The position numbers were made by a program, and so were the translations under genes. Below are positions 25,370 to 42,801 of a stretch of 64,000 nucleotides of DNA, one piece after another (position 1 is the first letter of the stretch; every line of letters begins with the position of its first letter). The DNA comes from an uncultured Spirochaetia bacterium. Lineage in GTDB: Bacteria > Spirochaetota > Spirochaetia > CAKZLE01. The stretch is taken from NCBI GenBank assembly GCA_937125225.1, contig CAKZLE010000026.1:1-64000 (forward strand), written 5' to 3'. Under the pieces are notes generated by a model. That model ran no database searches and was not told the DNA's origin. It worked only from the letters and a program-made list of their open reading frames with translations.

Positions 25370-27784
25370 TCATAGATATTGGTTTAACAGGTGAATAATA
25401 TCATTCTTCTCAAAAGGTTTACTCAAACTTCCTGTGAAATCATAGGCTTCAGGGGTTGAGATGATAGGGTCATTTGAATAACCACTCATAGCAAAGATGG
25501 GTAACATCCCATATGATCTTCTTAACTGTGTTATTATATCATTTCCCCCAAGTCCTCCTTGTACGGTTAGATCAAGAAAAATAGCTAAAAAAGGGCAAGG
25601 AGGTTTGTGTTCCTCGAAATACTGTTGACTATATTCTGGTAGCAATTCCAAGACCTCTTCACCTTTGGTTTTTACCTCAATAGAATAACCTAAGGATTCG
25701 AGTAGGTGTTTAAAGATATCTCTCAAGTAAGACTCGTCATCCATGATCAGGATCCTACCGTCCCCTTTGTGGTCTTTTAAACTAGCAATAAGGTTTGAAG
25801 AGTACTGCTTCCTATATATTGGTAGGAAAATATGAAAGGTCGTACCTTTACCGAGTTCTGATTCAACGAATAATGATCCATCATGTTTTTTTACAATCGA
25901 ATGGCAGGTAGCTAGTCCTAATCCATTTCCTGCTTTCTTTGTGGTGAAGAATGGATCAAAGATCTTATCGATTATACTTTTGGGGATCCCTGGCCCCGTA
26001 TCGGAGATAGAAACATTAATATATTCTCCTGGGGGTAAGAGCAGCTCGTTTATCTCCAACAGTCTTCTAATAACAGTAGAGATGACTATGGACCCTTTTT
26101 TGTCCAAAGCCTGCTTTGCATTGATAACGATATTGTCAATCACCTGTCCAATCTGATTCTTATCAATTTCACATAAGACTGGTTCATCACAAAAATTGAA
26201 TTCACAGTCTATTGATGAGCCTGACAAAGAAAAAGTAGTACTTTTCTTTATAAGAGATTTAATATCTGTGGGTGCTCGATTGGGGACCCCTCCTCGGGAG
26301 AACGTCAATAATTGTTGGGTTAGATCCCTTGTTCTAGAGAGGACTGATAAAGCACTATTGATAAATTCTAGATTATCCTCACCTTGCAGGCTATATTCTT
26401 TTGCTATCTCCATGTATCCGAAGATCCCACCAAGTAGATTATTAAAATCATGGGCTAAACCACCGGCTAGAATACCCAAAGAGTCTAAGCGTACATTGTT
26501 CTGCATCTTTTCACGGATTCTATAGATCTCAGTCATGTCTCTAAAGACCAATACAACTCCTAGGATTATACCTAATCTGTCTTTGATGGGAGAAGCACTA
26601 TCAGAAATATTGAACTCTTCACCTGTCTTCGATATGAGAATTGTATGGTTAGAGGGTTTCTTTGGTGTTCCGGTCTCAAGCACAAAAGAAATAGGGTCTT
26701 TTATGAGCTCCTGTGTTATCTCATTCTTTACGATATAAACATCATCAATATTTCTTGATAAGGCCTCCTTATGGCTAAAACCTGTGATCTTTTCAGCTCT
26801 AGGATTAATATGAGTGATGTCCCCGGAAATATTCGTGACGAGAACTGCATCATCAATCGAATTCAAGATTGTTAATAAGAATTTTTCTTTTTCAATCGCT
26901 GTATTCTTTGCATGAACTTCCTGAATAATCGAAAGATCAAGTTCATTGCCTAGCTTTCTAGCGATGATATTTGTTACGAAAAACCCAATGATCACAAAAC
27001 ATACTATTAAGAATGAAGAGCTTAAAGCGGGATTGATGATAGTACTATGGTGAGACATATAAATAAAGATCGATGAGATGAGTACTGTCACGATGGTATA
27101 AGGGATAAAGGATTGCATGATAAGATTCTTTGTTGTTTTACCATAGAAGATATTGATAGGAAAAGTATCAGGATGAGAGAGTCTGTAATGATTAGCAAGA
27201 AGAAAACTTGCCAAAGCAGTAGGTAGGGTTACCGGAAGAAAGAGCCCATCTCCTCTTAATAGCGGAGATCCGAAAATATATGAAAGACAAAGAGCCAAGG
27301 AATTGAAAGCATAAAAATAGCTTAACCAATTACTTATGAGTCTTAATCGGTTATGGACCATAGGATGGTATAAGATGATTATTTCCATGAGAATCAGTGA
27401 TTCCATGATAAAGAACAGGACACTCGTTGATGGGGGTAGGGAAAAGATTTCATGTAAAGGTATAAAGAGAGTTGATGAAAATGTATTCACCAGATAACGT
27501 ATTACATTAAAAAGTGAAAAGAGCATAAGCAAAATGGTTAGGATAGCATGTAGTCTTAATCTCTGCTTAGTGACATGCTTATCAAGAATATTGATGAGCA
27601 TGAGATTTATGATGGTAAAATGGACAGCACAAATTAGAGGCATAGGAATATAATCTTTATTGAATAAGCCTATAATCGAAAAATCACTAAAAAAATCTAT
27701 AATACCAAAAAAGGCTAGAACCTGTACGGCTCCAAGCAGTGAAGTAGTTATAAGTTCTTTTTTTCTATTGAGCTCATGGTACAT
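25370..27784 (-). CDS. Membrane hybrid sensor kinase (7-TM, PAS, HisKA, HATPase, REC)
   Basis: 804 aa. About seven to eight hydrophobic helices fill residues 12-290, a PAS domain follows at 300-425 (SIDDAVLVTNISGDITHINPRAEKITG), then HisKA with phospho-His in LAGGLAHDFNNLLGG, an HATPase (IVINAKQALD, DTGPGIP, GLGLATCHS) and a receiver (LIMDDESYLRDIF, acceptor in FLDLTVQGG, MSGYS, LSKPF). The integral membrane sensor suggests an intramembrane or lipid-borne signal. GGAG lies 7 nt before the ATG. More AT-rich than its neighbours. No output regulator is adjacent. Confidence 0.9.
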   Translation of the reverse strand: MYHELNRKKELITTSLLGAVQVLAFFGIIDFFSDFSIIGLFNKDYIPMPLICAVHFTIINLMLINILDKHVTKQRLRLHAILTILLMLFSLFNVIRYLVNTFSSTLFIPLHEIFSLPPSTSVLFFIMESLILMEIIILYHPMVHNRLRLISNWLSYFYAFNSLALCLSYIFGSPLLRGDGLFLPVTLPTALASFLLANHYRLSHPDTFPINIFYGKTTKNLIMQSFIPYTIVTVLISSIFIYMSHHSTIINPALSSSFLIVCFVIIGFFVTNIIARKLGNELDLSIIQEVHAKNTAIEKEKFLLTILNSIDDAVLVTNISGDITHINPRAEKITGFSHKEALSRNIDDVYIVKNEITQELIKDPISFVLETGTPKKPSNHTILISKTGEEFNISDSASPIKDRLGIILGVVLVFRDMTEIYRIREKMQNNVRLDSLGILAGGLAHDFNNLLGGIFGYMEIAKEYSLQGEDNLEFINSALSVLSRTRDLTQQLLTFSRGGVPNRAPTDIKSLIKKSTTFSLSGSSIDCEFNFCDEPVLCEIDKNQIGQVIDNIVINAKQALDKKGSIVISTVIRRLLEINELLLPPGEYINVSISDTGPGIPKSIIDKIFDPFFTTKKAGNGLGLATCHSIVKKHDGSLFVESELGKGTTFHIFLPIYRKQYSSNLIASLKDHKGDGRILIMDDESYLRDIFKHLLESLGYSIEVKTKGEEVLELLPEYSQQYFEEHKPPCPFLAIFLDLTVQGGLGGNDIITQLRRSYGMLPIFAMSGYSNDPIISTPEAYDFTGSLSKPFEKNDIIHLLNQYL

Positions 27785-29869: not shown

Positions 29870-30620
29870 ACACCTATTATAGGGGCTAAGGGTATTTTGA
29901 ACAATGTGAATGATCTCACTTTATCTGGAGCCACTTTATCTGGAGCGAGAGACAAAGACTACAAGACTACAAGACTATTACGTACACCGTAATGGATATA
30001 CGAAAGAACGGAGCCCTACGGGATAGGAGAAGATGTATGATAAAAGTGCTAAGACGATAAGCAGGGAATACAAAGAGGTATGGCAGAACATATACTTGCA
30101 GAGGTGTCCTTCACTCGAATAGAGTACTATAAAGATCATGACCTGATTGGTGCAGAGCAGCACCTGCAACGATATCTGAATTAGAAGTATTCACGGGAAC
30201 CATTGAGAGAGTGATGGGGGGGGGTAATCATGCTCGGTATTCTATCATTTCAGGGAAATTAGAAAGTATGAATTATCTGGCAACGTTCTTAGAGCAGGCA
30301 GTAGATGACAGAATACAAAAAAATCTGATTTGTTAATTCAAATCAGCTTTTAATTAGCAGGGACAGCACTTTATATAGAGTAAAAAGAATGGAAATATAA
30401 TATATATACTGTATGTAGTGTTAAATATGCGAATATTCAAAAATACTACCACTAGATGATAATTGATCTGGAAACATTTTAGAACCACCGTTCCTAAGCT
30501 TGCCCCACCACGCGAAAAAGTAATATTATTTTTGGAAACAGCACTAAAAGTATTTATAAGCAGCATATCTATAGTGTACTTCGATTAAGACCACTATCAT
30601 CTCATCAATATAGGCACTTT
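29870..30620. other. Intergenic region at chromosome-prophage junction
   Basis: About 750 bp without a convincing gene. Two tandem copies of ACTTTATCTGGAGC lie near 29918-29946, three copies of ACTACAAG-like repeats near 29957-29976, and a G9 run near 30216. A 34-codon frame (30080-30184, MAEHILAEVSFTRIEYY) and a short open stretch at 30230-30334 look like remnants of unknown genes. Composition turns AT-rich from about 30310. The left prophage boundary probably falls in this interval, but no attachment repeat can be proven without the right end. Confidence 0.5.
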
Positions 30621-32204
30621 TTAGGCCCCAATATTACGATATAGATTTTTTTTAAATAATTCTGAAATTAGTACTTTCAAATTTTCTATCATTTCAGGGG
30701 TATTAGGGATTAATGGGAATGCACCAACCCCCAAATAAGTATCAATATCATTTACTGAAGTTTTTATTAGGGCATGAACATCCTTTTCATAAAAACATAA
30801 TTCTGTTCCTGGATAAAGTTCGATAGCAAATTTACAGTTTTCTATAGCATCAAGATATGCATGCATTTTTACTACGTCTGCTGAATTATAATACCTGACT
30901 TCTTCAAAATTATTCTTTACTCGATATTTTGCGTCAAAAACATATTTTGCTCCATTAGAGAATTCTATTGTTATATCTGGTCTGAGTTCTACACTGTATG
31001 AAGTTTTGCGCTTCTTTGATTCAGTTTGATTATAATGCAAGAAAACATCTTTATGAGGTGATGATAGCGTTAGACCATACTTAATCCCAGAATCTAAATT
31101 ATTTAGTTCCCTAATGTCTTGAATAACAATATCTTTGTTAAACACAAGTTTTGCAATTTGAAAGAAAGTCCAATACTCATACAATTCAGAAATATTTTTT
31201 AATCCAACTGCTTGAAAATTTTCTATATCTGCATGAAGTAGTTGTTTAATTCCAAATCTGCTCTTAACATAATGATAAAAAAGATCTCTATATCCCAAAC
31301 GATTCCTTAAAACCGTTGAGTATTGTGGTACTTGATACATTCTACTAATATTTTTAAAGAAAGGTTTTGATAGGTAATGTACACATAGCTGATTAATTTG
31401 TTTTGCATCTTCGTTAAGATTTGAAGAGATATTTTTTTTGATCATGTATTGAGAAAGTTGTTGTATATGTAAAAGTAGGTATTTTACAAATTGGTTTTCA
31501 GGTGTATTCGTGCTTAGAAAATATTCTTTATTAAGAATCTTTTTAGGAAAATAGAATTTTGAAGAGTTTATTTTTAAATTCTTAGCTAAGGTTGAATTTG
31601 ACAAATGATTACTATCTTCAATAATTGTAAGAGTATCACTTTTTGAAAAGATTGACTGTATTGTTTTATTATTGGTTTTTCTAATTTTGGTAATATATTC
31701 TTGTTTATAGTGATGCTCGTATAAGTTGTTTGATTTTTCAATTACTATATTTAGTAATGTTTCAAAATTACGCTTTTTGGGCCAATTAATTATGATGTTT
31801 TTATAATAATTAAATTGTTGAATCTTGTTAGACTCTTTTAGATTGTAATCAATATCACCAATTAGTAATACTGGTGAAGCAAAATCATATATACAATTTT
31901 TAGTGATTTCTTGAATATCTTTTATCAAGATACTTATCTGTTCTTCACCATTTTTGTCTAGCAAGAATTTAGAACTTTTTACATCTAATGATCTAGAAAA
32001 GAAATTGATTATCCCAATTTTATTGCAAATACGCAAGGACCCTTGTTTATTTCCAGGAATCCAGTCAATAAACTCAGTAAGTTTAGATTTTCTTATTTCA
32101 TTTTTAATAATATGTAAATTCTCAGTTTCAAAATCAATGATATAAGTTGTATTTTCACTGAGTTGATTGGATTTTACTTCTAATCCATTTAGATATAGTT
32201 TCAT
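30621..32204 (-). CDS. DUF2357 / PD-(D/E)XK nuclease, McrC-like restriction subunit
   Basis: 527 aa. The N-terminal two thirds form a DUF2357-type region (QVPQYSTVLRNRLGYRDLFYHYV, LKNISELYEYWTFFQI); the C-terminal third carries the nuclease core RPDITIEF then YVFDAKYRV, i.e. the D...D-x-K signature. In McrBC-like and LlaI/LlaJI-like systems this partner cuts DNA when loaded by the AAA+ GTPase encoded just upstream. Last gene of the three-gene operon, 3 nt after the GTPase stop. Strongly AT-rich. Confidence 0.85.
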   Translation of the reverse strand: MKLYLNGLEVKSNQLSENTTYIIDFETENLHIIKNEIRKSKLTEFIDWIPGNKQGSLRICNKIGIINFFSRSLDVKSSKFLLDKNGEEQISILIKDIQEITKNCIYDFASPVLLIGDIDYNLKESNKIQQFNYYKNIIINWPKKRNFETLLNIVIEKSNNLYEHHYKQEYITKIRKTNNKTIQSIFSKSDTLTIIEDSNHLSNSTLAKNLKINSSKFYFPKKILNKEYFLSTNTPENQFVKYLLLHIQQLSQYMIKKNISSNLNEDAKQINQLCVHYLSKPFFKNISRMYQVPQYSTVLRNRLGYRDLFYHYVKSRFGIKQLLHADIENFQAVGLKNISELYEYWTFFQIAKLVFNKDIVIQDIRELNNLDSGIKYGLTLSSPHKDVFLHYNQTESKKRKTSYSVELRPDITIEFSNGAKYVFDAKYRVKNNFEEVRYYNSADVVKMHAYLDAIENCKFAIELYPGTELCFYEKDVHALIKTSVNDIDTYLGVGAFPLIPNTPEMIENLKVLISELFKKNLYRNIGA

Positions 32205-32207
32205 TTA

Positions 32208-33785
32208 TTACTCAATAAAACTAGCATAACCGGTTTTTTCAAGTGCTATATACATTCTTTTTAGTTTTGTTACTGCTTTTGGATAATCAGTAGTTTCAGG
32301 AATAATATCTTCTACCGAATCAGTTTTTGCTAGATATTTGATTAATTCAGATAAAGGTTCTTCAAGGACAGAATAATTGCCATTTAGTTTTGGAAATACT
32401 TTCTGAACTAATTGGAAATCTAATGCTTTGTTCAATATTTTTTTTGATGCCCCAATATACTTAACTGTATTTAATATATATAAAGAGATTTCATTAACTG
32501 TTCTATATCCAAAATGCAAATTGTATCTTTGAAGAATTTCATTTAATTCTTGAATGGTATTTCTAACTTCATCAGATAATAATTGATAGTGTTTACTTGA
32601 GGGCTGCTCATAATCAACATAATCAGGGAAAGTATTTAAAACAAAAAAATCTTTATATTCGTTGCCCTGAATATCTCCAGCATATGTTTTTAAATTAACT
32701 TTATTGAATTCAATGACATTTGATCTATCTAAGACTTTTGGACTTATCATATAAGTACTTTCATCAATATTTACAGTTCCAGTAATATAAAGATTAGTAG
32801 GTAAATCAATTTCATTTGGAATTTCAATAAGATAATCTGAATCTGTTGGTAAGGTCTGTTTACCGTTATGTAGTATAATCTTTTCCTGATAAAGGCCCGT
32901 GTTTTCATCAATAATTCTACTTTCTAAACAGCTTAAAACATCACTAAAATAGTGTTCAACTTTTGATAAATTCATTTCATCAAGTATTACAAAGAAAGGG
33001 TGATCTGGGTAATTTCCCGCTTCGATTATAAATTGTAGAAATTTTGGAATATGATATTTCTGCTCAATAATATTATAAAAACCAAATAGATTTGAATTGT
33101 CAGTCCAATCACTTCTCACTGATATAAAACAATGTCTATCTAATAATTTCTCTTCAATTTTAACTATGGATGATTTTACTGCTTGTTTATTAACAGATAC
33201 AACTTTAAGAACATTATCATCTACTCGTTCTAATTCTAAGACATCATGTATATTGTAATGTATCTTAAGATGGTTAATAGCATCGTATTTCTCACCTTGA
33301 GAATCTCTATTACTATTTTTGTAACGTGCTCTGACTAAAGGACTGGCAGCTCTTTGCCCATATATTCCAATAGTAAACCCACCATATTCATCTTCAACTT
33401 TTATTAAATATGTATCTGAAAAGTTACCACCATCATTTCTTTCTTTAAAATCCCTAGCCCCCTCCTCAAATTTTATAATTTGTTCTTCACTCAATAAAGA
33501 GGGAAGGGATGCGTATTGAAAATTGAATCTGTCATAAGTTTTTGGAATTCTCATTGATAATGTAGGTATTTCTTCAGTTTTTTTAGAATCATCGGGCTCT
33601 TTGTTAGATATTGAATTATTTGAAAATAGTTGTGCAATTTTTGTTTTCCCCGTACCACTAATTCCAGATAAAATTATGAATGGTTTTGTTTTTAATGATA
33701 TTGCATATGTCGTTAGTACATCTTGTGGGAAATAAAATCCCGCATCTTTATACATACCATAATATTTTTCAACTGCTGAATCCAT
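32208..33785 (-). CDS. McrB-like AAA+ GTPase, restriction motor subunit
   Basis: 525 aa. Walker A GISGTGKT (41-48), Walker B FFVILDEMNLSK (264-275), and the sensor region TGTVNIDESTYMISPKVLDRSNVIEF typical of McrB. Between Walker A and B is a 200-residue insertion with a beta-rich stretch (TYLIKVEDEYGGFTIGIYGQ) seen in this subgroup. There is no separate N-terminal DNA-reading domain, so target choice must come from the insertion or the partner. AGGAG lies 8 nt before the ATG inside the methylase stop region; genes are 3 nt apart, so translation is coupled. Confidence 0.9.
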   Translation of the reverse strand: MDSAVEKYYGMYKDAGFYFPQDVLTTYAISLKTKPFIILSGISGTGKTKIAQLFSNNSISNKEPDDSKKTEEIPTLSMRIPKTYDRFNFQYASLPSLLSEEQIIKFEEGARDFKERNDGGNFSDTYLIKVEDEYGGFTIGIYGQRAASPLVRARYKNSNRDSQGEKYDAINHLKIHYNIHDVLELERVDDNVLKVVSVNKQAVKSSIVKIEEKLLDRHCFISVRSDWTDNSNLFGFYNIIEQKYHIPKFLQFIIEAGNYPDHPFFVILDEMNLSKVEHYFSDVLSCLESRIIDENTGLYQEKIILHNGKQTLPTDSDYLIEIPNEIDLPTNLYITGTVNIDESTYMISPKVLDRSNVIEFNKVNLKTYAGDIQGNEYKDFFVLNTFPDYVDYEQPSSKHYQLLSDEVRNTIQELNEILQRYNLHFGYRTVNEISLYILNTVKYIGASKKILNKALDFQLVQKVFPKLNGNYSVLEEPLSELIKYLAKTDSVEDIIPETTDYPKAVTKLKRMYIALEKTGYASFIE

Positions 33786-33788
33786 TAA

Positions 33789-35666
33789 CTAAACTCCTAA
33801 AAATAAATACTCTTTCACACGGTTATTGTTGTCATTAACTTTATGACCTTGATTCCCGAAGCTATAAGTATGGTCAATTGCGATTACTTCAACATCATCT
33901 TTGTATTTTGACATTAGACTTATCATTTCATCCTTTGTGGGGAAAGAGTTAGATGAATAGGAAACCAATAATTTACTATTTTTATGCTTTCTAAATAGTT
34001 TATCAAATGCATCATATGCACCATTTCGGGTACTAAATGGTGTAGGGTAATTTTTGAATTTTTTGGTTTTTGTTTCCCACTGAATATCTACATCTTCCCA
34101 ATTTCTAGCTAATCCTTCAACAAAATGATATCTCCTAACATATTCATTATCAGAATTTGGACTGTAATATGGTGGATCTATATAGACTAAATCTGCCTTA
34201 GTTGAAAGATTCATAGAATCCTTATTATAAACCCTATTATTCTGTCCATTATCGAAGACTGCTGAATTTAACAGTTCAATAGCATGAATGAATTGTTCTT
34301 CAAAAGTAAGTTTTAAGTCTTTTCGTCCATCATTGTATCTAAAACCAGTGTATGTAAATATTCCTCTAGGTCTTTTTCTTGTGCATGCACGTACTAATGC
34401 GCTCATGGCAAGATCTTTCTTATACTTATTATTTAGTTTCGCTATATTTGATCTTACAAGATCTATAAAAGCGTTATCTTCTTCTGAAAAATAAATATCT
34501 TTAAAAGTATTGCATACAAAGCCATCATACCGCAACTCTCCAGCAAGTAAAAAATCAATATCTTTCTGAGTGAGCTTTACTTTTGAGTTGGAAATGAGTG
34601 CATTCCCTAACCGTTTATTCATAACCATATAGTCATTACTAATTACTTGTTTGTTTAAGGATTTAAAAAGATAACTTACTACTTGACTACCAGAAAATAA
34701 ATCTAGTACTGAAGAATAAGATACAGTTTCTGCCACTTTTTGTATTTGCTCTAATAGAGATTTCTTACTTCCCATATATCTTGTTGTAGGGAATTTTTTT
34801 ACTTGTTTAGGGATACAGTTTTCTATTGAATTAACATAAATTCTACGAATTGGAGGAACTGAAACGATGACATCTTCTCCTACACGCTTTTTCGCATTGC
34901 TATTGACATACCTTTTAGTAGGAATTACAGAAATATCGTAATCTTTAAAGAGGTCATATACAAGAGGAGCATTTGAGTTTGTTAAAAGGACATGGCATCC
35001 AATACTTGAGAGTCTTTTCACTTCTTCAGCTAATGCAATATGATCTTCTTCATAAAAACCTTCTTTAGTATAACGCTTGAAATCTGCATATTGTCCAACT
35101 GGAAGATAAGGAGGATCTAAAAAAATAAAATCATCTTTTTGTGCATATTCTTTAAGAAGTGATAAATAGGATTTGTTTATAATTTGAGCATTTTTAAGGA
35201 CATGAGATGCCGCAAGAAGTCCTTCCTCATTTATAAAATTAGGATTTTTGTATTTACCATAAGGTGTGTTGAAGTGCCCTTTTTTATTAACTCTATACAA
35301 CCCATTATAGCAAGTTTTATTTAAATATAATGTCCTTGCAGCTTTTTCCATACTATTAAGATCATTTATATCAACACTTCTAATCGAATAGTAAAATTCT
35401 TCTGTATTTTCATAAGTTTTTAATAGGTTTAGTATATCAAAAGGAGCTTTTGCTACGGAAGAATATAGGTTTATTAATTCAGGGTTAATATCCCCAATTA
35501 TAGCTTTTAGAGGATTTAAGAAGAAATATAAAGCTCCTCCTCCAAAAAATGGCTCAATATAAGTATTATACTTATTGGGCATTCTCTTAATTAACTCCTG
35601 AATAAGTTGAGTCTTTCCACCAGCCCATTTTAATATTGGTTTCACATAGGTGTTTTGTTGATTCAT
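33789..35666 (-). CDS. Bifunctional Dam-type N6-adenine methyltransferase (two fused catalytic domains, M.FokI/M.LlaI-like)
   Basis: About 625 aa holding two complete adenine-methylase units. Unit 1: KPILKWAGGKTQL, PFFGGGALYF, FIFLDPPYLP. Unit 2 (from about 295): TTRYMGSKKSLL, LDLFSGSQVVS, LVYIDPPYYSP. A double unit is what an asymmetric recognition site needs, one domain per strand, as in M.FokI and M.LlaI. It protects host and prophage from the McrB/DUF2357 nuclease downstream. The ATG at 35666 follows GGGAG by 8 nt; the ATG at 35687 is possible. First gene of the restriction operon. Confidence 0.9.
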   Translation of the reverse strand: MNQQNTYVKPILKWAGGKTQLIQELIKRMPNKYNTYIEPFFGGGALYFFLNPLKAIIGDINPELINLYSSVAKAPFDILNLLKTYENTEEFYYSIRSVDINDLNSMEKAARTLYLNKTCYNGLYRVNKKGHFNTPYGKYKNPNFINEEGLLAASHVLKNAQIINKSYLSLLKEYAQKDDFIFLDPPYLPVGQYADFKRYTKEGFYEEDHIALAEEVKRLSSIGCHVLLTNSNAPLVYDLFKDYDISVIPTKRYVNSNAKKRVGEDVIVSVPPIRRIYVNSIENCIPKQVKKFPTTRYMGSKKSLLEQIQKVAETVSYSSVLDLFSGSQVVSYLFKSLNKQVISNDYMVMNKRLGNALISNSKVKLTQKDIDFLLAGELRYDGFVCNTFKDIYFSEEDNAFIDLVRSNIAKLNNKYKKDLAMSALVRACTRKRPRGIFTYTGFRYNDGRKDLKLTFEEQFIHAIELLNSAVFDNGQNNRVYNKDSMNLSTKADLVYIDPPYYSPNSDNEYVRRYHFVEGLARNWEDVDIQWETKTKKFKNYPTPFSTRNGAYDAFDKLFRKHKNSKLLVSYSSNSFPTKDEMISLMSKYKDDVEVIAIDHTYSFGNQGHKVNDNNNRVKEYLFLGV

Positions 35667-35763
35667 AATTGATGCTCCCAAGTACATACTCTTCCATAAT
35701 CAATTTATCGTATAAATGAATATGGAGATAGAAATATATCAAATTATCAGATGTTAGCGAATA

Positions 35764-36480
35764 TCAATACGGATGATTATGATACCATCCAACTACTTTC
35801 CCTTCAATCTTCACGGTATCCAGATCTTGCGGCACCACTTTAGGGGTATAACGACTATTCTCAGAATGAATGATCACATTTTTCTCAATAGGATCAAACT
35901 CTAGTCGTTTCACATATGCATTATGATCAATTGAGATGACATATAATCCATCTCCTTCTATCTGATCTTCTGCAAATACTACGAGATCTCCATTAAAGAG
36001 CTGGGCTCCAGTCATGGAGTCTCCCTTAACTTCAATTACATGCAATTTATCTTTATCATAACGAGTGACTAATTGTTCAAGTACAGGCAACACTTTCTCC
36101 GGGTTTTGATTTTTTAAAATTTGTTCCTGGACCCCTATAGCTAAACGTTGAGATCTCATGGGAACATTGATGACCCGCTGTTCTGTAAATAGTGTATATA
36201 CTTGTAAAGCCGTTGAAGTAATCATTGGTTCTGGGTTCCCTTGCGATAATGAAGCGAGAGAGACATCTGTCTCTTCCCCAAAAACTAAGTATTCAACCGA
36301 AACTCCTAGTGCACGAGCAATTCTCGCAGCTCGATCTACAGGAGGTAATCTATCTTTTTGTTTCCAACCTGACAGCGTAGAAAGGGTAATGCCCGTCTCT
36401 TTTGCTAACCAAGTTCGAGTTAAATCTTTACTATATAACTTTTCAACACGTTTCCAGAAATCATTCATACCAATCATCAT
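35764..36480 (-). CDS. CI/LexA-type phage repressor (XRE HTH plus S24 peptidase)
   Basis: 238 aa. The HTH (residues 18-65) reads TWLAKETGITLSTLSGWKQKD ... AARIARALGVSVEYLVFG. The S24 protease-like domain has the serine in KGDSMTG and the lysine in NAYVKRLEF, plus an LexA-like tail, so it can self-cleave on RecA activation. It should hold the lysogenic state. It is divergent from the early genes and shares a dyad (36484-36506) with them. Confidence 0.92.
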   Translation of the reverse strand: MMIGMNDFWKRVEKLYSKDLTRTWLAKETGITLSTLSGWKQKDRLPPVDRAARIARALGVSVEYLVFGEETDVSLASLSQGNPEPMITSTALQVYTLFTEQRVINVPMRSQRLAIGVQEQILKNQNPEKVLPVLEQLVTRYDKDKLHVIEVKGDSMTGAQLFNGDLVVFAEDQIEGDGLYVISIDHNAYVKRLEFDPIEKNVIIHSENSRYTPKVVPQDLDTVKIEGKVVGWYHNHPY

Positions 36481-36483
36481 ATA

Positions 36484-36506
36484 GGTACTATATCGTAAAT
36501 AGTCCC
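36484..36506. promoter_or_regulatory. Candidate repressor operator (dyad)
   Basis: GG-N-ACTAT, a 7-bp centre and ATAGT-N-CC form a 23-bp dyad with 17 of 23 positions symmetric, only 4 bp upstream of the repressor start. A related AGTCCAAACGG stretch at 36553-36563 echoes AGTCCCAAACGG at 36501-36512 and may be a second site inside the early promoter. Confidence 0.55.
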
Positions 36507-36543
36507 AAACGGCAATAATTTTTACAGAAAAAATACAATACCC

Positions 36544-36571
36544 TTGACAAGAAGTCCAAACGGATTATTAT
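36544..36571 (+). promoter_or_regulatory. Early rightward promoter, probably leaderless
   Basis: TTGACA (36544-36549), a 16-bp spacer and TATTAT (36566-36571). The predicted transcript start is at or next to the ATG at 36578, with no ribosome site before it. It overlaps a repeat of the candidate operator, so the CI-type repressor probably controls it. Confidence 0.65.
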
Positions 36572-36577
36572 ATAGAT

Positions 36578-36757
36578 ATGAATATTCGAATGGATGACAA
36601 AAAACAATACAAAAAGACCAGTATATCAATCCGTATGGATATACATCGTAAAGCAAAAGCAGCTTCAGCTCTATCTCATACGGCAAAGAACTTCCAAGAA
36701 TGGATGGAAGAAGCGATTGAAGAAAAGCTGAAACGTGAAGGGGAAACACATGCTTGA
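36578..36757 (+). CDS. Ribbon-helix-helix (Arc-like) small DNA-binding protein
   Basis: A 59-aa protein that is easily missed. KKTSISIRMDIHRKAKAAS is the beta strand and first helix, then AKNFQEWMEEAIEEKLKRE the second helix, the classic RHH pattern with alternating polar residues in the strand. Such proteins act as dimeric early repressors or antitoxin-like regulators. No Shine-Dalgarno is visible and the promoter's start point falls on the ATG, so translation is likely leaderless. The stop overlaps the next gene's start by 8 bp. Confidence 0.75.
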   Translation: MNIRMDDKKQYKKTSISIRMDIHRKAKAASALSHTAKNFQEWMEEAIEEKLKREGETHA

Positions 36758-37109
36758 TGGACAAGTTTTAGTAACCAGAGAAGATCTCAATCATTTTGAG
36801 CAGAAATTGGATTTATTGAATACACAATTTTCAATGATCCTACAAATAGCAAAGATGCCAACCATCGTTAAGATCCAGGATATTGCTAGGATGGAGAATG
36901 TATCATCTACCTTCATTCGAGGGAAAGGACGATATCTCCTCCCACGCTTTGGAGTATCAGCCTTCGGTGATGGTTGTATCAGATGGTCAATGCAGGAGTA
37001 TCTTGATTGGAAAGAGATATCTCCTGATAAGCGAAAAAAGATGTGGAAAGATCTTCCTCCAAAAGAGAAACAGAGGATTGTTATGGGTAAGTATGCCATA
37101 CCCGAATAA
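36750..37109 (+). CDS. Excisionase/HTH-17-like DNA-binding protein
   Basis: 119 aa from the ATG at 36750 (AAGGGG 6 nt upstream; a GTG at 36735 is in frame but unsupported). An N-terminal coiled helix (REDLNHFEQKLDLLNTQF) is followed by a winged helix that resembles MerR/Xis-type heads: VKIQDIARMENVSSTFIRGKGRYLLPRFG and CIRWSMQEYLDWKEI. It could be the excisionase of the mid-prophage integrase, or an early regulator. Translationally coupled to the RHH gene. Confidence 0.65.
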   Translation: MLDGQVLVTREDLNHFEQKLDLLNTQFSMILQIAKMPTIVKIQDIARMENVSSTFIRGKGRYLLPRFGVSAFGDGCIRWSMQEYLDWKEISPDKRKKMWKDLPPKEKQRIVMGKYAIPE

Positions 37110-37140
37110 CCGTAGAATGAGTAATGAGTATGGGAGGTCC

Positions 37141-37170
37141 GGGAGCAACCTGCAATGCTCCCTCATTTTT
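37141..37170 (+). terminator. Terminator or attenuator hairpin after HTH gene
   Basis: GGGAGCA (37141-37147) and TGCTCCC (37156-37162) pair over an 8-nt loop, followed by TCATTTTT. It lies 31 bp after the HTH gene and 27 bp before the next start. Confidence 0.7.
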
Positions 37171-37188
37171 ACTATTTGAGGTGTTTGT

Positions 37189-37428
37189 ATGTATATACCT
37201 GGTGATTGGCCAATTGTGAATGAGATCGATGAAGTTGATGGGAAAAAGGTCTATGAAGTGCAAAACCTATCAGATGAAGTTATCGGTCATATCAAATGGC
37301 ATGGTGCAGCGAATAGCTACGGATTCATCCCTGTAGAGGGGATCATCTTCGAATCTATTGATCTAAGAACAGTGGGATTCATATGCGATAAAGCGACTGA
37401 AGGGCTTCCTAATTGGCTGAGGAATTAA
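37189..37428 (+). CDS. Small phage hypothetical protein
   Basis: 79 aa with no recognised domain (MYIPGDWPIVNEIDEVDGKKVYEV, then VIGHIKWHGAANSYGFIPVEG). Soluble, beta-rich pattern. GAGGTG lies 7 nt before the ATG. It sits between an attenuator hairpin and the tRNA-like element. Confidence 0.65.
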   Translation: MYIPGDWPIVNEIDEVDGKKVYEVQNLSDEVIGHIKWHGAANSYGFIPVEGIIFESIDLRTVGFICDKATEGLPNWLRN

Positions 37429-37433
37429 AAGAC

Positions 37434-37526
37434 ATGGGAATGGTACAAACGGTATGTACCAGGTTGTTAGCTAAACGTTATTCCCTTCAAAATAACCTGC
37501 TGTGGTTCGATTCCGCTCATTCCTAT
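37434..37526 (+). ncRNA. tRNA-like element, class II shape
   Basis: ATGGGAA (37434-37440) pairs with TTCCTAT (37520-37526), and the helix extends to 9 bp. GTAC / GTAC closes a D-like arm whose loop holds AACGGTA (conserved A, GG, A). Near the 3' side GTGG-TTCGATT-CCGC is an almost perfect T arm with the B-box consensus GGTTCGATTCC. TTATT/AATAA makes a long variable-type hairpin. If read as class II, the anticodon would be TAG, but only three of five anticodon-stem pairs form, and no CCA is encoded. It may be a degenerate or unusual phage tRNA, or a tRNA mimic. Confidence 0.5.
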
Positions 37527-37641
37527 CCCGGATCGTATGACCCGGATATTAAGTAGGTACCGACTAAACAGGTGCATTGGTTTTATCAGTCTATTCTTGA
37601 TTGGTAAGTAGTAATAGTAAACGTTCTTATACACAACAACT

Positions 37642-37666
37642 ATCATGCCGGGGAAACCCGGCTGAT
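37642..37666 (+). other. GAAA-tetraloop hairpin before small membrane gene
   Basis: ATCA-T-GCCGGG, loop GAAA, CCCGGC-TGAT: ten base pairs with one bulged T, capped by a GNRA tetraloop. It ends 5 nt before the AAGGAG of the next gene, so it may be an attenuator, an RNA protein-binding site or an mRNA 5' stabiliser. There is no T run. Confidence 0.55.
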
Positions 37667-37683
37667 TTGTAAGGAGCATCTAA

Positions 37684-37806
37684 ATGTTTGGACTTATCAT
37701 TTTTTGTATCGTATCGGTGGTATTCATTGGGATTCTTATGAAGCATGATCCTAAAGAACTCAAATCCTATGATGTGGACCTCTCAGGCCAAGGGCGGTGC
37801 TCATGA
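37684..37806 (+). CDS. Tiny single-span membrane protein
   Basis: A 40-aa protein: one hydrophobic helix (FGLIIFCIVSVVFIGILM) then a short charged tail (KHDPKELKSYDVDL). AAGGAG lies 8 nt before the ATG. Unknown role; small early membrane proteins of this shape can act in superinfection exclusion. Its stop overlaps the next short frame as ATGA. Confidence 0.55.
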   Translation: MFGLIIFCIVSVVFIGILMKHDPKELKSYDVDLSGQGRCS

Positions 37807-37895
37807 AGAGATCCTGGATACAGAGCATTATGACATTTTTATTATCACGAACTTATCAGCTGCCACAGACTACCTGTAGCAGCTTTGTTATGTAG
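37803..37895 (+). CDS. Possible 30-aa peptide
   Basis: A 30-codon frame (MKRSWIQSIMTFLLSRTYQL) starts by ATGA overlap with the preceding gene. An AGCTGC / GCAGCT hairpin (37858-37863, about 37878-37883) overlaps it. There is no family evidence; it could equally be an untranslated leader of the next gene. Confidence 0.25.
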   Translation: MKRSWIQSIMTFLLSRTYQLPQTTCSSFVM

Positions 37896-37903
37896 GAGGC
37901 AGT

Positions 37904-38179
37904 ATGAACTTAGGAATGATCACCCCAGAGGGGCTTCTCTTAGTAAATCGTAAAGGGGCCTTTATCCCACAAATATGTCCGTATACAAATCAGGGACTTG
38001 AGTGTGGAGACTGGTGTCCTCACTTTCATGAACCGGTTGAGATTTCAGGATCAACAATAAATTTACAGCTATGTCATCGCGACCAGATCGTCTTTACCCG
38101 ACTTGATGATTTTAGAACTGCAGATCGTTTTGTAGAGGAAGAACCAGAAAACCAGGAACAAGGGATCGTGAATTTATGA
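37904..38179 (+). CDS. Cys/His-rich small phage protein
   Basis: 91 aa. CPYTNQGLECGDWCPHFHE presents C-x8-C-x3-C-x-H-x-H, a likely zinc site; the rest is beta-rich with an acidic tail. AGGAGG lies 5 nt before the ATG. It overlaps the antirepressor gene by 4 bp (ATGA). Function unknown. Confidence 0.65.
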   Translation: MNLGMITPEGLLLVNRKGAFIPQICPYTNQGLECGDWCPHFHEPVEISGSTINLQLCHRDQIVFTRLDDFRTADRFVEEEPENQEQGIVNL

Positions 38180-38880
38180 GAGAGCTCATACCGATTCAGC
38201 ATCATGAAGAGATGGAAACTGATGCGGTATCTGCTCATGATTTATATGAAGCTCTAGAGATCAAAACACGATATTCTCAATGGATCACTCCACACCTTCA
38301 TGAGTTGATTGAAGGACTAGACTTTGTAAGGTTACCCTTACAAAGTTCTGGAGGTCGTCCATATGAAGATATTATCCTTGGTCTCGATATCGCAAAACAC
38401 ATCTGCATGTTATCTCGAACAGAGAAGGGGAAGGAGATTCGTGAATACTTCATCAAGGTGGAGAAAGCCTGGAACTCTCCGGATCTCGTGATTGCCAGGG
38501 CGCTTCAAGTAGCGCAGCAACAGATAGACCTGCAGCAGAAAAAGATCATTGAACTGAAACCGAAAGCCGATTTCTATGATCAGGTGGCCGGGTCAAAGAC
38601 CGCGATCAAAATGGGAGATGTTGCGAAAGTGATTGGAATCCCAGGATTGGGAAGAAATAAGCTCTTTGTTTTTCTTCGTGATATCAAGGTCCTGCAGGAG
38701 AATAATATCCCGTATCAGACCTATGTGGACCGCGGATACTTCCGGGTGATCGAACAACGGTTCAATAAACCCAATGGAGAAGTCAGTATATCGCTCAAGA
38801 CGCTCGTATATCAGCGTGGAGTGGATTATATCAGGCGAAAGCTTATAGATCATCACATGATTTCAAAGGAGGCGAGCTAA
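38176..38880 (+). CDS. Phage antirepressor (AntA/AntB N-domain plus KilAC C-domain)
   Basis: 234 aa. The N-terminus is AntA/AntB-like (VSAHDLYEALEIKTRYSQWITPHL, EGLDFVRLP, EDIILGLDIAKHICMLSRTEKGKEIREYFIKVE); a coiled linker (ALQVAQQQIDLQQKKIIELK) leads to a KilAC domain (KADFYDQVAGSKTAIKMGDVAKVIG...GRNKLFVFLRDIKVL...YFRVIEQRF). It counteracts the repressor or reprograms transcription. Overlaps its neighbours by ATGA and TAATG. Confidence 0.9.
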   Translation: MRELIPIQHHEEMETDAVSAHDLYEALEIKTRYSQWITPHLHELIEGLDFVRLPLQSSGGRPYEDIILGLDIAKHICMLSRTEKGKEIREYFIKVEKAWNSPDLVIARALQVAQQQIDLQQKKIIELKPKADFYDQVAGSKTAIKMGDVAKVIGIPGLGRNKLFVFLRDIKVLQENNIPYQTYVDRGYFRVIEQRFNKPNGEVSISLKTLVYQRGVDYIRRKLIDHHMISKEAS

Positions 38881-40049
38881 TGGATGATTCTCTACTCAAC
38901 ATTCGTATTGATAAGGACCACGATCTCATATTTTGCTCTGTGGGGCTCTATAAGATGTTCCTGGCTAATAAATCACCAGGTATGGAGGCTAAGCAACTCT
39001 ATGATCATTTACTCTTTACTGCAAGGCTTCAGGAGACCAGTATCATTCATGCGAATACTTCCTATTTGCAGAAAGGGCTCGGTTGGGGCCAGGCAAAGAT
39101 CAAACGGGCTAAGGCATTCTTAACGAAGAAGGGGCTGATCTCATATGTCCAGAGAAGAGGCCCTAATGGACAAATGATGGATTGGTTTATCCAAGTTAAT
39201 TTCTTCAGAAGAGAACCGCAGATTGAAGAGACCTATGACCCAGATCGGGCTGAACAGCTGGCATTATTCGGGTTTATGACCGGAGGATCGGATGCGACAC
39301 CACTGGAGAAAACGGAGGATAAAACCACTGGTACAGATATTGACCCAGTGGATACAACGACTAATCCATCCAGAGGTACAGAAAATGACCCTCCGGATGA
39401 AAATAGCCTAGAACCCAGTGGTTCAGAAATTGACCCTGTGGATTTAAAGCCAAAACAAGCCACTGGTATGGCTGACCGCCCAATGGCTAGCCATACGTAT
39501 GGCTACGATCGACAAATGCTTAAGATTAGAAAAGAAATGCTTAAAGAGAGAAAGAGAAACGAAGAGCCCTCCCTCTCAGATTCTGACGGGATTATCATCA
39601 AGGCATTTTATCAGGCATACATCGATCGCTTCGGGTATGACCCTGCTCAACTCACCGGAGAAGAACTCAAGCTGATTGAAACTCAGGTATCCCGATTCGG
39701 AGTAGGTAAGCTACTCACCATGCTCCAGGCCTTTTTCACTGACCGGGTGAAGAATGTGGCTTCATTCGCTGAGAAGGCCGGGTATCGCTACAAGGTCTTT
39801 TCATCCCAGATTGAAGCCCTCGCGATGATACCACCTCCCCAGAAGGCAGCAGAAAAGCCTGAAGAACTCACCGTATGCCCTGAATGTGGCCATACTGAGT
39901 TCAGGAGCACAACTGATGTGAAGATGTGCCTTCAGTGTAGAGCGTTCTATAACCTCGAAGGCGGGAAGTGGATCGTAGATCCTGAGAGTTTAGAGCAGGA
40001 TGCCAATATTTTGGAATTACCAAAATTCTGGCAGAAAAAGACGAGTTAG
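38880..40049 (+). CDS. Winged-helix replication-initiation-like protein with C-terminal zinc ribbon
   Basis: 389 aa. The N-terminus resembles replication helix-turn-helix proteins (FCSVGLYKMFL...LYDHLLFTARLQETSIIHANTSYLQKGLGWGQAKIKRAKAFLTKKGLISYV). The middle is a low-complexity Asp/Thr/Pro linker (about 120-215) containing tandem repeats of a GT/S-E-x-DP motif, followed by a DnaD-like helical part (DGIIIKAFYQAYIDRFGYDPAQLTG). The C-terminus is a zinc ribbon CPECGHTEFR...CLQC. It probably loads helicase at the phage origin. TAATG overlap with the antirepressor. Confidence 0.7.
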   Translation: MDDSLLNIRIDKDHDLIFCSVGLYKMFLANKSPGMEAKQLYDHLLFTARLQETSIIHANTSYLQKGLGWGQAKIKRAKAFLTKKGLISYVQRRGPNGQMMDWFIQVNFFRREPQIEETYDPDRAEQLALFGFMTGGSDATPLEKTEDKTTGTDIDPVDTTTNPSRGTENDPPDENSLEPSGSEIDPVDLKPKQATGMADRPMASHTYGYDRQMLKIRKEMLKERKRNEEPSLSDSDGIIIKAFYQAYIDRFGYDPAQLTGEELKLIETQVSRFGVGKLLTMLQAFFTDRVKNVASFAEKAGYRYKVFSSQIEALAMIPPPQKAAEKPEELTVCPECGHTEFRSTTDVKMCLQCRAFYNLEGGKWIVDPESLEQDANILELPKFWQKKTS

Positions 40050-40054
40050 AAGAA

Positions 40055-40159
40055 AGTTTACAGAATTAGGGTTCCGTAAACTAACTGCCCGATTAGGGTG
40101 AATAACTACCGGCATGATAAAGAGATGCGAAGACGATTTACTTTAACGAAAAATCGCAT
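40055..40159. other. Two inverted repeats ahead of the integrase (candidate att/arm sites)
   Basis: AGTTTAC (40055-40061) with GTAAACT (40076-40082), and ATGCGA (40125-40130) with TCGCAT (40154-40159). ATTAGGGT occurs twice between. In integrase-adjacent DNA such repeats may be Int/Xis arm sites or the core; they could also be a terminator for the replication gene. Confidence 0.4.
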
Positions 40160-40195
40160 GCAAAACATATTTTAAGGGAGAGAAAGAGAGAGCCT

Positions 40196-41203
40196 ATGGC
40201 GTGTATATCCTGCGTATTCTTTGATGATGAAAACACCGAATGTAAGAAACATGCCCGGTATACCAACCTGAGAGGGTTCCCATACAAAGGCCATACAGCC
40301 TGCTATGTTTCCTCAATGGCCGTGACCGTTGAATCGAAGAAATACCTTACTGATCAGCAGGTAGATTTCCTCCTGGATGATCTCAAGTTTGGATCATATG
40401 TTGAGAAGAATAAGCAGCTGATCTACTGGCTAGAAGGAAAGGATTATGACTTCGATCTTCCTTCCCTAGTTGCCTTCATCGAGGAGGCACGGGCCAGTAA
40501 GCGGTACTCAGCGAATACTGTGAACATCAGGAAAGCCCAAGTGAAAAAGATCGTCACCGAAATCTCCAAGCAGAATCCTGATCATTGGACCGTGATCGAT
40601 CAGTACAAGATTGATCAGCTTTTCAGGTCCATCAAATTTCAAAAGAAACAATCGAATGCGGTTACCTATCAGAGAATCCTTTCTCGTGAAGAACTTGATG
40701 AATTCATGGATCATCTCTCCCGGATGAACAAACGGATTCATCTTTTTGCCAGATTCCTGATCAATTCCGGGTGCCGGGTATCAGAGATGATCAACATCAA
40801 GCGAGGAGATTATGAACTCACTATCCGTGATGAGTATGAGATCACGGTGTTGGGGAAGGGGCAGAAAGAACGAGTGATCTACATCGATGTGGATCTCTAT
40901 GAAAAGATCATGAATGAATTTCATCCCGGTGGGATCTTCAAGAGGGGATACCTCTTCACCAATCGGAGCGGGACCAAGTTTTCCAGGAACTATATCTCCC
41001 GTGAATTGAACCGATACGGAAAGACGATCATAGGTCGACCGGTATCGGCCCACCGATTACGTCATAGTTTTGCAACCCTCATGATCGAGGATGAACAACC
41101 GATCAAGGCAGTCTCTGAGTACCTCGGCCATAGTAGTACCGCGATAACACAAGATATGTATGTTCACGTACAGATGAACAAAAAAGCTTTACCAAATTAT
41201 TAA
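40196..41203 (+). CDS. Tyrosine recombinase (phage integrase) with N-terminal Cys cluster
   Basis: 335 aa, catalytic set complete: R194 (SGCRVSE), K221 (LGKGQKER), H286/R289 (AHRLRHS), H312 (LGHSS) and the nucleophile Y322 (DMYVHV). A core-binding domain precedes it (about 55-155). Residues 3-36 carry four cysteines (ISCVFF...ECKKH...TACYV), a probable metal-binding tag unlike normal XerC/D. It lies mid-prophage rather than at the end, between replication and Dam genes. It probably integrates and excises the prophage, but an inversion or dimer-resolution role is open. Confidence 0.9.
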   Translation: MACISCVFFDDENTECKKHARYTNLRGFPYKGHTACYVSSMAVTVESKKYLTDQQVDFLLDDLKFGSYVEKNKQLIYWLEGKDYDFDLPSLVAFIEEARASKRYSANTVNIRKAQVKKIVTEISKQNPDHWTVIDQYKIDQLFRSIKFQKKQSNAVTYQRILSREELDEFMDHLSRMNKRIHLFARFLINSGCRVSEMINIKRGDYELTIRDEYEITVLGKGQKERVIYIDVDLYEKIMNEFHPGGIFKRGYLFTNRSGTKFSRNYISRELNRYGKTIIGRPVSAHRLRHSFATLMIEDEQPIKAVSEYLGHSSTAITQDMYVHVQMNKKALPNY

Positions 41204-41224
41204 TACCACCAAGGAGTAAACCAC

Positions 41225-41518
41225 GTGAAAATTTACCTAACAGGACCGATGTCAAACAATCCCAACTATGAATTAGAGTTCCAGCACGTTGAGGACCTGC
41301 TTCACGAGAAAGGCCATATCGTCATTAACCCAGTCAATCTAGTATCGGAGGACTGTACCGTATGGGAAGATGCGATGAAGGCTGATCTCGTGGAAATGCT
41401 ACGGTGTGATGCTGTGGCTGTGGTGCATACATGCCAACCTTCAAAGGGCCAGGCTCTGGAGATACTTATTGCTAACCAGCTTGATATCCCCTGTAAAGAT
41501 TATCAGGAATACCTCTAG
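41225..41518 (+). CDS. DUF4406 (nucleoside 2-deoxyribosyltransferase-like) protein
   Basis: 97 aa. MKIYLTGPMSN...FQHVEDLLHEKGHIVINPV...ADLVEMLRCDAVAVV is the DUF4406 pattern, a compact relative of nucleoside deoxyribosyltransferases common in phages. GTG start preceded by AAGGAG. It may alter nucleotide pools or sense them; no proof. Confidence 0.85.
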   Translation: MKIYLTGPMSNNPNYELEFQHVEDLLHEKGHIVINPVNLVSEDCTVWEDAMKADLVEMLRCDAVAVVHTCQPSKGQALEILIANQLDIPCKDYQEYL

Positions 41519-41529
41519 GGTACGCAAGA

Positions 41530-41733
41530 GTGGATATCATCGGAGGAATCACACGGGATCTCTATCCTGTGGATGATAAGAAAGAACTAATTAACGGATT
41601 ATATGCTGGGACCTATTGGATGTCTCTACGACCATGCCCTGAGTGCGGGAAAAAGCTCTTTGCCAATGGGAAACAGTATGTATGTAATACCTGCGGATAT
41701 AAAGAACGCTATTCAACTAAGAAAACGAAATAG
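41530..41733 (+). CDS. Small zinc-ribbon protein
   Basis: 67 aa, GTG start at 41530 with no good ribosome site (a second start, ATG before SLRPCPEC, is possible). CPECGKKLF...YVCNTCGYK is a C4 ribbon with a basic tail, as in small phage DNA-binding or chaperone-like proteins. Function unknown. Confidence 0.6.
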   Translation: MDIIGGITRDLYPVDDKKELINGLYAGTYWMSLRPCPECGKKLFANGKQYVCNTCGYKERYSTKKTK

Positions 41734-41753
41734 AGAAAAGAGGAACTAGATCA

Positions 41754-42563
41754 TTGAAAACACCATTAACCTATTACGGAGGCAAGCAACAGCTTGTCTC
41801 AACCATCCTTCCGCTTATTCCTGAGCATAAAACCTACTGCGAGCCGTTCATGGGAGGAGGGGCGATATTCTTTAGTAAGCGGCCTTCTGAGAATGAAGTC
41901 ATCAACGATGTGAATGCAGAACTCATCAATTTCTATGAAGTGGTGCAACGGGATTATGTAGCCCTGGAGAAGGAGATCCAGATTAGTCTGCATAGCAGAT
42001 CATTGCATCGCCAAGCGAATGTGATTTATAACAACCCGGATATGTTCGATAAGGTGAAGCGAGCCTGGGCGGTCTGGGTGACTGCAGCACAGAGCTTTGG
42101 ATCGATGCTCAGCGGTACGTATGGCTATGATCATACCGGACAGACATCTCTCAAGGTGAAGAACAAACGAGAATCCTTCACCATGGATTATGCGATCCGT
42201 CTGCAGAAGGTTGATATTGAATGTACTGATGCACTCCGAATCATCAGAAGCTATGATGCTCCGGATGCATTCTTCTATTGTGACCCTCCCTACATCGGCT
42301 CTGACTGTGGTCATTACGATGGGTATTCAGAAGAAGATTATCGAATGCTCTTAGAACACCTTTCGAAGATAGAAGGACGGTTTCTCCTCAGTTCTTATCC
42401 CAGCGATATATTGAAAAAATTCAAAAATAAGCATGGTTGGCAGCAGAAAGAGATAGAAATGAAGATGAGTGTAAACTCAAAATCTAAGAATCGCAAAACT
42501 ACCAAGATTGAAGTACTTTCTGCAAACTATGATCTTGATATGGGGCAGCAGGAATTATTCTAG
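41754..42563 (+). CDS. Dam-family DNA N6-adenine methyltransferase
   Basis: 269 aa. TYYGGKQQLV at residues 6-15, CEPFMGGGAIFF, and the catalytic DPPYIGSD near 178. The start is TTG with GAGGA 9 nt upstream. It is a single-domain orphan methylase, distinct from the bifunctional enzyme at the left end. It may shield phage DNA from host or prophage nucleases, or tune packaging; its site is not readable here. Confidence 0.9.
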   Translation: MKTPLTYYGGKQQLVSTILPLIPEHKTYCEPFMGGGAIFFSKRPSENEVINDVNAELINFYEVVQRDYVALEKEIQISLHSRSLHRQANVIYNNPDMFDKVKRAWAVWVTAAQSFGSMLSGTYGYDHTGQTSLKVKNKRESFTMDYAIRLQKVDIECTDALRIIRSYDAPDAFFYCDPPYIGSDCGHYDGYSEEDYRMLLEHLSKIEGRFLLSSYPSDILKKFKNKHGWQQKEIEMKMSVNSKSKNRKTTKIEVLSANYDLDMGQQELF

Positions 42564-42571
42564 GAGGCAAA

Positions 42572-42751
42572 ATGAATAAGCATCCGATTATAGTTTATTG
42601 GATTGGTACTGGGAAAACTAGGTATTACGAATCAATAATCCTATGTGCACAAGAGTTAAAAACCTCTACTAGTCAGATAAAAAGATTATTGAACAGTGGA
42701 AAGATTTATAATTCGAAAATGGGGTATTGCTATCTTGAAGATGCTTTATGA
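42572..42751 (+). CDS. Small HTH-like protein (NUMOD1-like pattern)
   Basis: 59 aa after AGGAGG. The pattern YYESIILCAQELKTSTSQIKRLLNSGKIY...GYCYLEDAL resembles the DNA-reading NUMOD1 helix-turn-helix of homing enzymes, without a nuclease. It lies just before the SIR2 cargo block and might be a phage gene cut off from its partner. The resemblance is weak. Confidence 0.5.
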   Translation: MNKHPIIVYWIGTGKTRYYESIILCAQELKTSTSQIKRLLNSGKIYNSKMGYCYLEDAL

Positions 42752-42766
42752 TTCGTAGTTAATACC

Positions 42767-42794
42767 TTGAATAATAATGAAATGGTGATAGAAT
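42767..42794 (+). promoter_or_regulatory. Promoter of first SIR2 gene, probably leaderless
   Basis: TTGAAT (42767-42772), 16 bp, TAGAAT (42789-42794). The predicted start is at about 42801, the base before the ATG at 42802; no ribosome site precedes that ATG. Confidence 0.6.
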
Positions 42795-42801
42795 CAACTT
42801 T

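Follow-up and report, generated by a model that had tools for sequence, protein, structure and literature searches.

A three-gene operon located 254 bp inside the left end of a prophage in an uncultured Spirochaetia bacterium probably encodes a GTP-dependent restriction-modification system that is blocked by modification of its site. The system would be composed of a fused adenine methylase, a McrB-like ring protein with a B3-like reader domain and a DUF2357 nuclease. The operon was found in a window of 64,000 nucleotides. The host belongs to the class Spirochaetia; a genome assigned to its class encodes a protein that is identical to one from Thiospirochaeta perfilievii. All three genes are read from the minus strand as full-length frames, and the spacing between them is exactly 3 nt. 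Their GC content amounts to 26-32% compared to about 38-45% for the flanking host and phage-early genes. The following genes are relevant here:

30621..32204, minus strand: McrC-like nuclease subunit, 527 aa (Pfam: DUF2357, E 7.8e-18; PDDEXK_7, E 5.5e-16)
32208..33785, minus strand: McrB-like AAA+ GTPase, 525 aa (PADLOC PDC-M26A; profile against solved McrB structures; structure model)
33789..35687, minus strand: N6-adenine methyltransferase of the M.AlwI type composed of two fused D12 domains, 632 aa (PDLC03261, Pfam)
35764..36480, minus strand: phage repressor, CI-like, containing an S24 peptidase domain; the methylase gene follows 76 bp downstream

The original prediction had described an adenine methylase with two DPPY units, a McrB-like motor and a DUF2357/PD-(D/E)XK nuclease, encoded by closely spaced AT-rich genes as lysogenic cargo beside the repressor. 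The layout, the composition and all three protein families were borne out. The prediction had also filed the operon as LlaI-like, and this assignment did not hold (see below).

From end to end, the methylase aligns with a single family of bifunctional type II enzymes (PDLC03261, 938 bits). MethyltransfD12 is found in two stretches (E 6e-74), and both DPPY motifs are present. The two halves are:

34869..35645, minus strand: N-terminal methylase half, Dam/M.DpnII-like, DPPY at residues 191-194 (M.DpnII 2dpm, E 9.4e-61, residues 13-273)
33792..34799, minus strand: C-terminal methylase half with DPPY motif and motif I FSGSQ (homologue alignment)

The protein is 54-61% identical to methylases of Geobacillus, Priestia and Acinetobacter plasmids and of the Erysipelothrix phage phi1605. 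Behind these plasmid and phage methylase genes, genes for AlwI-family or type IIs endonucleases are located, as is the case for seven methylase relatives on viral contigs. The endonuclease gene at one of these plasmid and phage loci (L021) is apparently cut short. Among close kin of the methylase, the partner is almost always an AlwI-family endonuclease. In the 64-kb window, no AlwI-family endonuclease was found. Judged by its amino acid sequence, the enzyme is a member of the M.AlwI/M.EacI/M.GmeI family, as deduced from a comparison with AlwI-associated relatives. In this family, one domain methylates GGATC and the other GATCC (PMC3526280). Therefore, GGATC is the best guess for the site, and m6A at GGATC/GATCC is the most likely modification. 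The prophage shows no avoidance of GGATC (O/E 0.88-0.92), which is uninformative.

The AAA+ gene is recognized only weakly by Pfam; it matches PADLOC PDC-M26A at 1.7e-48. A profile built from the McrB family reaches the solved McrB GTPases at E 2e-5, and a model of the whole protein (pLDDT 71) matches E. coli McrB (6ut6). The following elements were located in the GTPase and the nuclease:

33642..33665, minus strand: Walker A GISGTGKT, residues 41-48 (alignment)
33132..33620, minus strand: insert, residues 56-218, predicted B3-like DNA-recognition domain (structure model)
33192-33563, minus strand: folded core of the insert, residues 75-198 (structure model)
32970..32993, minus strand: Walker B FVILDEMN, residues 265-272 (alignment)
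32760..32771, minus strand: McrB signature in the NxD form, N339-I-D341-E342 (NxD branch as outlined in the cited parts of PMC11090510)
30927..30980, minus strand: nuclease active-site stretch PD(x13)DAK, P409 D410 ... D424 A425 K426 (motif comparison)

The signature lies in the context TGTVNIDESTY, i.e. NxD followed by E, and has the identical form in every relative inspected. By sequence, the protein belongs to the methylase-associated NxD branch of McrB. The PD...DAK stretch of the nuclease is unchanged across six relatives. The McrC-like protein consists of DUF2357 and the nuclease domain alone and carries no additional McrC domains.

Motif I of the C-terminal methylase half deviates from this conservation: it reads FSGSQ in the window methylase vs. 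FSGSG in 10/10 other homologues inspected. The change could weaken this half. Together with the low GC content of the cargo, it would fit a degenerate cassette that persists as inactive passenger DNA due to the altered motif or to poor expression. This is quite unlikely, as all three frames are full length and the catalytic motifs of both GTPase and nuclease, which are intact, do not vary among relatives. Moreover, if the methylase had failed, the restriction pair would presumably be toxic and quickly lost.

With Walker A found at residue 41 already, the McrB-like protein is devoid of a DNA-binding domain at its N-terminus. In its place, the protein has an insert of 163 residues that separates the Walker A helix from the following core strand, and the length of 525 aa is due to this predicted DNA-binding insert. 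When folded alone, the insert yields a model with pLDDT 82 and the order b-b-a-b-b-b-a-b-b. A Foldseek comparison with solved structures returned the B3 domain of VRN1 (probability 0.99), the N-domain of LlaJI.R1 (0.95) and the B3 domain of LEC2 (0.80), the only ones with probabilities of at least 0.8 among the matches listed. The accompanying figures are modest (E 0.008-0.015, TM 0.34-0.45), so that assignment of the predicted fold to B3 is likely but not proven. The model of the full-length protein independently matches LlaJI.R1 (0.93) and LEC2. A sequence profile of the insert found no match in the PDB; the likeness to B3 comes from fold comparison alone. By virtue of this fold, the insert may act as reader of the site that the methylase protects. 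At this position, other McrB relatives have inserts of 128-140 aa, some of them B3-like in the alignment. These proteins possess long N-terminal regions too, and an AlwI methylase is not nearby. Therefore, the insert does not necessarily read the site. A McrB relative from Thermococcus has an apparently different insert at the same position. In McrB proteins generally, this site between the two Walker motifs seems to accommodate additional domains.

Relatives of the trio were drawn from 18 genome loci with McrB relatives. The two closest full-length McrB loci are both gammaproteobacterial: Cocleimonas flava (L001) and Aestuariicella albida (L003). Each encodes a methylase of the same type, divergent to adjoining McrB and DUF2357 genes, and the McrB proteins are 43% identical to that of the window. 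Both methylases carry a MerR-like N-terminal domain (tested in Cocleimonas). In Cocleimonas, the methylase gene is directly followed by a gene for an AlwI endonuclease (PF09491, E 2.5e-111). This means that a single methylase apparently serves both the AlwI enzyme and the GTP-driven McrB/DUF2357 pair. The Aestuariicella locus adjoins phage lysozyme, baseplate and tail genes. A fourth locus is a viral contig (L028) with a McrB (44% identical) and a DUF2357 gene beside a phage lysozyme gene; this contig ends before any methylase. Since L003 and L028 are both located beside phage genes, carriage by phages is a repeated event. In a tree calculated without the insert, the McrB proteins of the window and of these three loci group together with moderate support (78/86). 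The insert is present in all four and absent from the next closest relative (L002). It changes faster than the C-terminal AAA+ part, with identities of 24-29% vs. 48-50%.

Searches of the viral collection with single-protein queries yielded nothing; alignment queries yielded one phage contig, L028. No additional close member was found in 369 genomes from the class of Aestuariicella, so that within this sample the variant is rare. In 393 genomes of the window's phylum, McrB relatives are present, with pairwise similarity bypassing the insert. In the unconstrained tree, the window methylase groups with AlwI-linked methylases. As a single clade was not rejected (AU p 0.18), it is not claimed that the McrB module became associated independently with two lineages of methylases.

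The recurrence of the trio bears on the question whether the three genes form one system at all. McrBC is classically modification-dependent, several McrB relatives combine N-terminal extensions with the lack of a methylase nearby, and the close kin of the methylase are paired with AlwI. Hence, McrB and DUF2357 might constitute an independent type IV nuclease that cuts modified DNA, beside a methylase that stands alone or whose AlwI partner has been lost. This is unlikely: the same pairing occurs in three genomes from two phyla with McrB proteins that are 43% identical, and in the window all three genes follow each other at 3-nt spacing. Furthermore, no modified-base domain was seen, and the insert of the McrB-like protein is closest to site-specific B3 domains including that of LlaJI.R1. 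A single modification-blocked system is thus the preferred reading, and its layout can be compared with those of known systems.

LlaI and BsuMI resemble the window in that their restriction is based on a McrB-like GTPase and targets unmethylated DNA. LlaI has, in addition, two methylase activities for an asymmetric site. According to a review, LlaI is a relative of McrBC that recognizes an unmodified sequence and requires two MTases (PMC3874153). In accordance with this, the window has a double adenine methylase and a McrB-like motor, and the original prediction had suggested a trimmed or distinct LlaI subtype in which a third restriction gene should be sought. Indeed, only two restriction genes are visible in the window. 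However, three restriction ORFs are found in both LlaI and BsuMI, and their McrB-like proteins are small with 337 and 343 aa, respectively (PMC1459862), whereas the McrB-like protein of the window has 525 aa with its own insert. Their methylases appear to belong to other families: that of the window is of the AlwI type, and its lactococcal split homologues are only 27% identical. Two restriction genes represent the complete layout of LlaJI- and PcaI-type systems, and the same two are conserved in Cocleimonas and Aestuariicella. No third gene is needed or missing; its apparent lack is explained by a McrB that bears an insert instead of an N-terminal DNA-binding domain. A LlaI-type system with M.FokI-like methylase that has been deprived of one restriction gene is, therefore, highly improbable.

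LlaJI from the Lactococcus plasmid pNP40 is more similar to the window. Both combine methylation with a McrB-like GTPase that contains a B3-type domain (predicted in the window) and with a PD-(D/E)XK nuclease as a subunit of its own, and both share an asymmetric site (putative in the window), location on a mobile element and two restriction genes. LlaJI depends for its specificity on the R1 subunit alone; in vitro, R1.LlaJI bound the site and displayed neither GTPase activity nor cleavage (PMC1459862). In the case of H. pylori LlaJI, DNA binding is mediated by a B3 domain at the N-terminus (structure 6c5d; PMC7680126). By contrast, the predicted B3-like domain of the window is located inside the AAA+ module. 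Further differences are the two separate 5mC methylases of LlaJI vs. one fused m6A methylase and the McrB signature, which is NxxD in LlaJI and NxD in the window. PcaI, composed of an MTase, a McrB-like protein and a DUF2357 protein, restricts unmethylated DNA in vivo (PMC8989522). It shares with the window the combination of methylase, McrB-like AAA+ protein and DUF2357 nuclease as well as mobility, but has a Dcm-like 5mC methylase (CCNGG) and another DNA-binding region. The type IIS systems AlwI, EacI and GmeI (GGATC) share the double D12 methylase family. They employ the AlwI endonuclease, in whose place the window has a GTP-dependent two-subunit nuclease, whereas Cocleimonas has both. Type IV McrBC lacks a cognate methylase and has a modified-base-binding domain, while in the window the methylase is encoded in the same operon.

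A census of McrBC systems published in 2024 states, in the parts cited here, that GTPase-domain inserts are frequent, 'likely encoding specificity domains' (PMC11090510). The same parts defer methylase-associated NxD branches to a later paper and state that no NxD McrB was characterised at that time. NxD followed by E, a GTPase-domain insert and a methylase neighbour are common to this branch and the window. For the NxD group, these parts mention extra McrC domains and two-component genes, both of which the window operon lacks, and do not describe AlwI-type or prophage members (PMC11090510). A host histidine kinase gene at 25370-27784 is located outside the prophage.

The borders of the prophage were deduced from a repeat of the tRNA-Met 3' end:

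30355..30366, no strand assigned: probable attL core TAGCAGGGACAG, with AGCTTTTAAT before it (match to the tRNA-Met 3' end at contig 68498-68509, attR)

The repeat consists of a 12-bp match and an adjoining 10-bp match with a 5-nt gap. It is convincing because of its place at a tRNA 3' end beside an integrase gene; the 12-mer by itself is weak. Both the integrase gene (contig 67221-68372) and the neighbouring tRNA-Met gene (contig 68497-68571) are located just past the window end. Due to the recurrence of the tRNA-Met 3' end, the prophage most likely spans 30355-68509 (about 38.2 kb). To the right of the repressor gene, genes for Ant, TerS/TerL, portal, prohead protease, capsid, tail tube and tape measure are found. 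In the circular phage genome, the cassette would lie between integrase and repressor, the usual position of lysogeny genes. It may be expressed in the lysogen together with the repressor. A promoter/terminator scan yielded a promoter count not above that of shuffles. As anticipated by the original prediction, protection of lysogens against other phages is plausible.

How the cassette might act can be envisaged by analogy with LlaJI, PcaI (PMC8989522) and McrBC, from which the site, the direction of specificity and the motor action are adopted. The fused methylase would introduce m6A into the two strands of an asymmetric site, most likely GGATC/GATCC, and thus shield the lysogen and the prophage. 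The McrB-like protein would bind unmarked incoming DNA by means of its B3-like insert and, as a ring, hydrolyse GTP and translocate along the DNA. Finally, the DUF2357/PD-(D/E)XK partner would be triggered to cut, as in McrBC and LlaJI, and thereby effect restriction.

Within the literature searched, the combination of AlwI-type methylase, B3-like insert, a locus shared with AlwI and carriage at a prophage end appears to be new. Going by the cited parts of the 2024 census, the cassette is a concrete member of the methylase-associated NxD group announced there, and it is relevant to the gap left by the lack of a characterised NxD McrB (PMC11090510). Since it is compact, its methylase family has a known specificity and there is one obvious reader candidate, the cassette lends itself to direct tests of its site, its GTP dependence and the part played by the insert. 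Tentatively, one might regard the NxD McrB as an interchangeable engine into which a reader is plugged between Walker A and Walker B. Combined with a B3-type GGATC reader, this engine may replace a type IIS enzyme, as in the window and Aestuariicella, or share its methylase, as in Cocleimonas, and phages may use it to defend their lysogens. The Cocleimonas locus, with a type IIS enzyme and a GTP-driven pair flanking one methylase, would show that the restriction enzyme can be exchanged while the protected site remains unchanged.

In Cocleimonas flava (locus L001, 3955-11131), a single AlwI-type methylase, whose N-terminal domain is MerR-like, is flanked by an AlwI endonuclease and McrB/DUF2357. 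A McrB relative on pTBMP1 of Thermococcus barophilus (L166, 5828-8704) adjoins a DUF2357 gene. It carries an insert of ~180 aa at the AAA+ position between Walker A and Walker B that is also used by the insert of the prophage McrB, and the two inserts are apparently of different kinds. In Desulfofustis (L002, 6978-10806), McrB comprises 396 aa, lacks an insert and is preceded by a separate 311-aa gene; this is perhaps a three-gene arrangement resembling LlaI/BsuMI. On an Acinetobacter baumannii plasmid (L021, 6953-13034), an AlwI-type methylase is followed only by a 152-aa ORF, and blaOXA-23 is located a few kb away.

The prophage that carries the restriction cassette encodes further genes:
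40196-41203 (+), early region, second tyrosine recombinase, additional to the tRNA-end integrase
41754-42563 (+), solitary D12 adenine methylase, 269 aa
42802-46816 (+), second defence-like cargo, low GC
contig 66812-67186 (L148, the contig stretch with the right prophage end, 3812-4186), short protein built from GPGGGMYT-type repeats, near that end

The first protein of the second cargo is a SIR2_2 protein matching PADLOC PDC-S25 with 552 bits. The next one combines SIR2_2 with an nSTAND NTPase and is weakly similar to Avs5.

In the prophage (36481-42800 and 46817-68509), CGACG/CGTCG shows strong avoidance (O/E 0.21), and in the flanking host DNA it falls outside the set of most avoided words. 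This avoidance may be the trace of a further restriction system in the host. The D12 enzyme is possibly a phage self-methylase. If it is GATC-specific, it would also mark GGATC.
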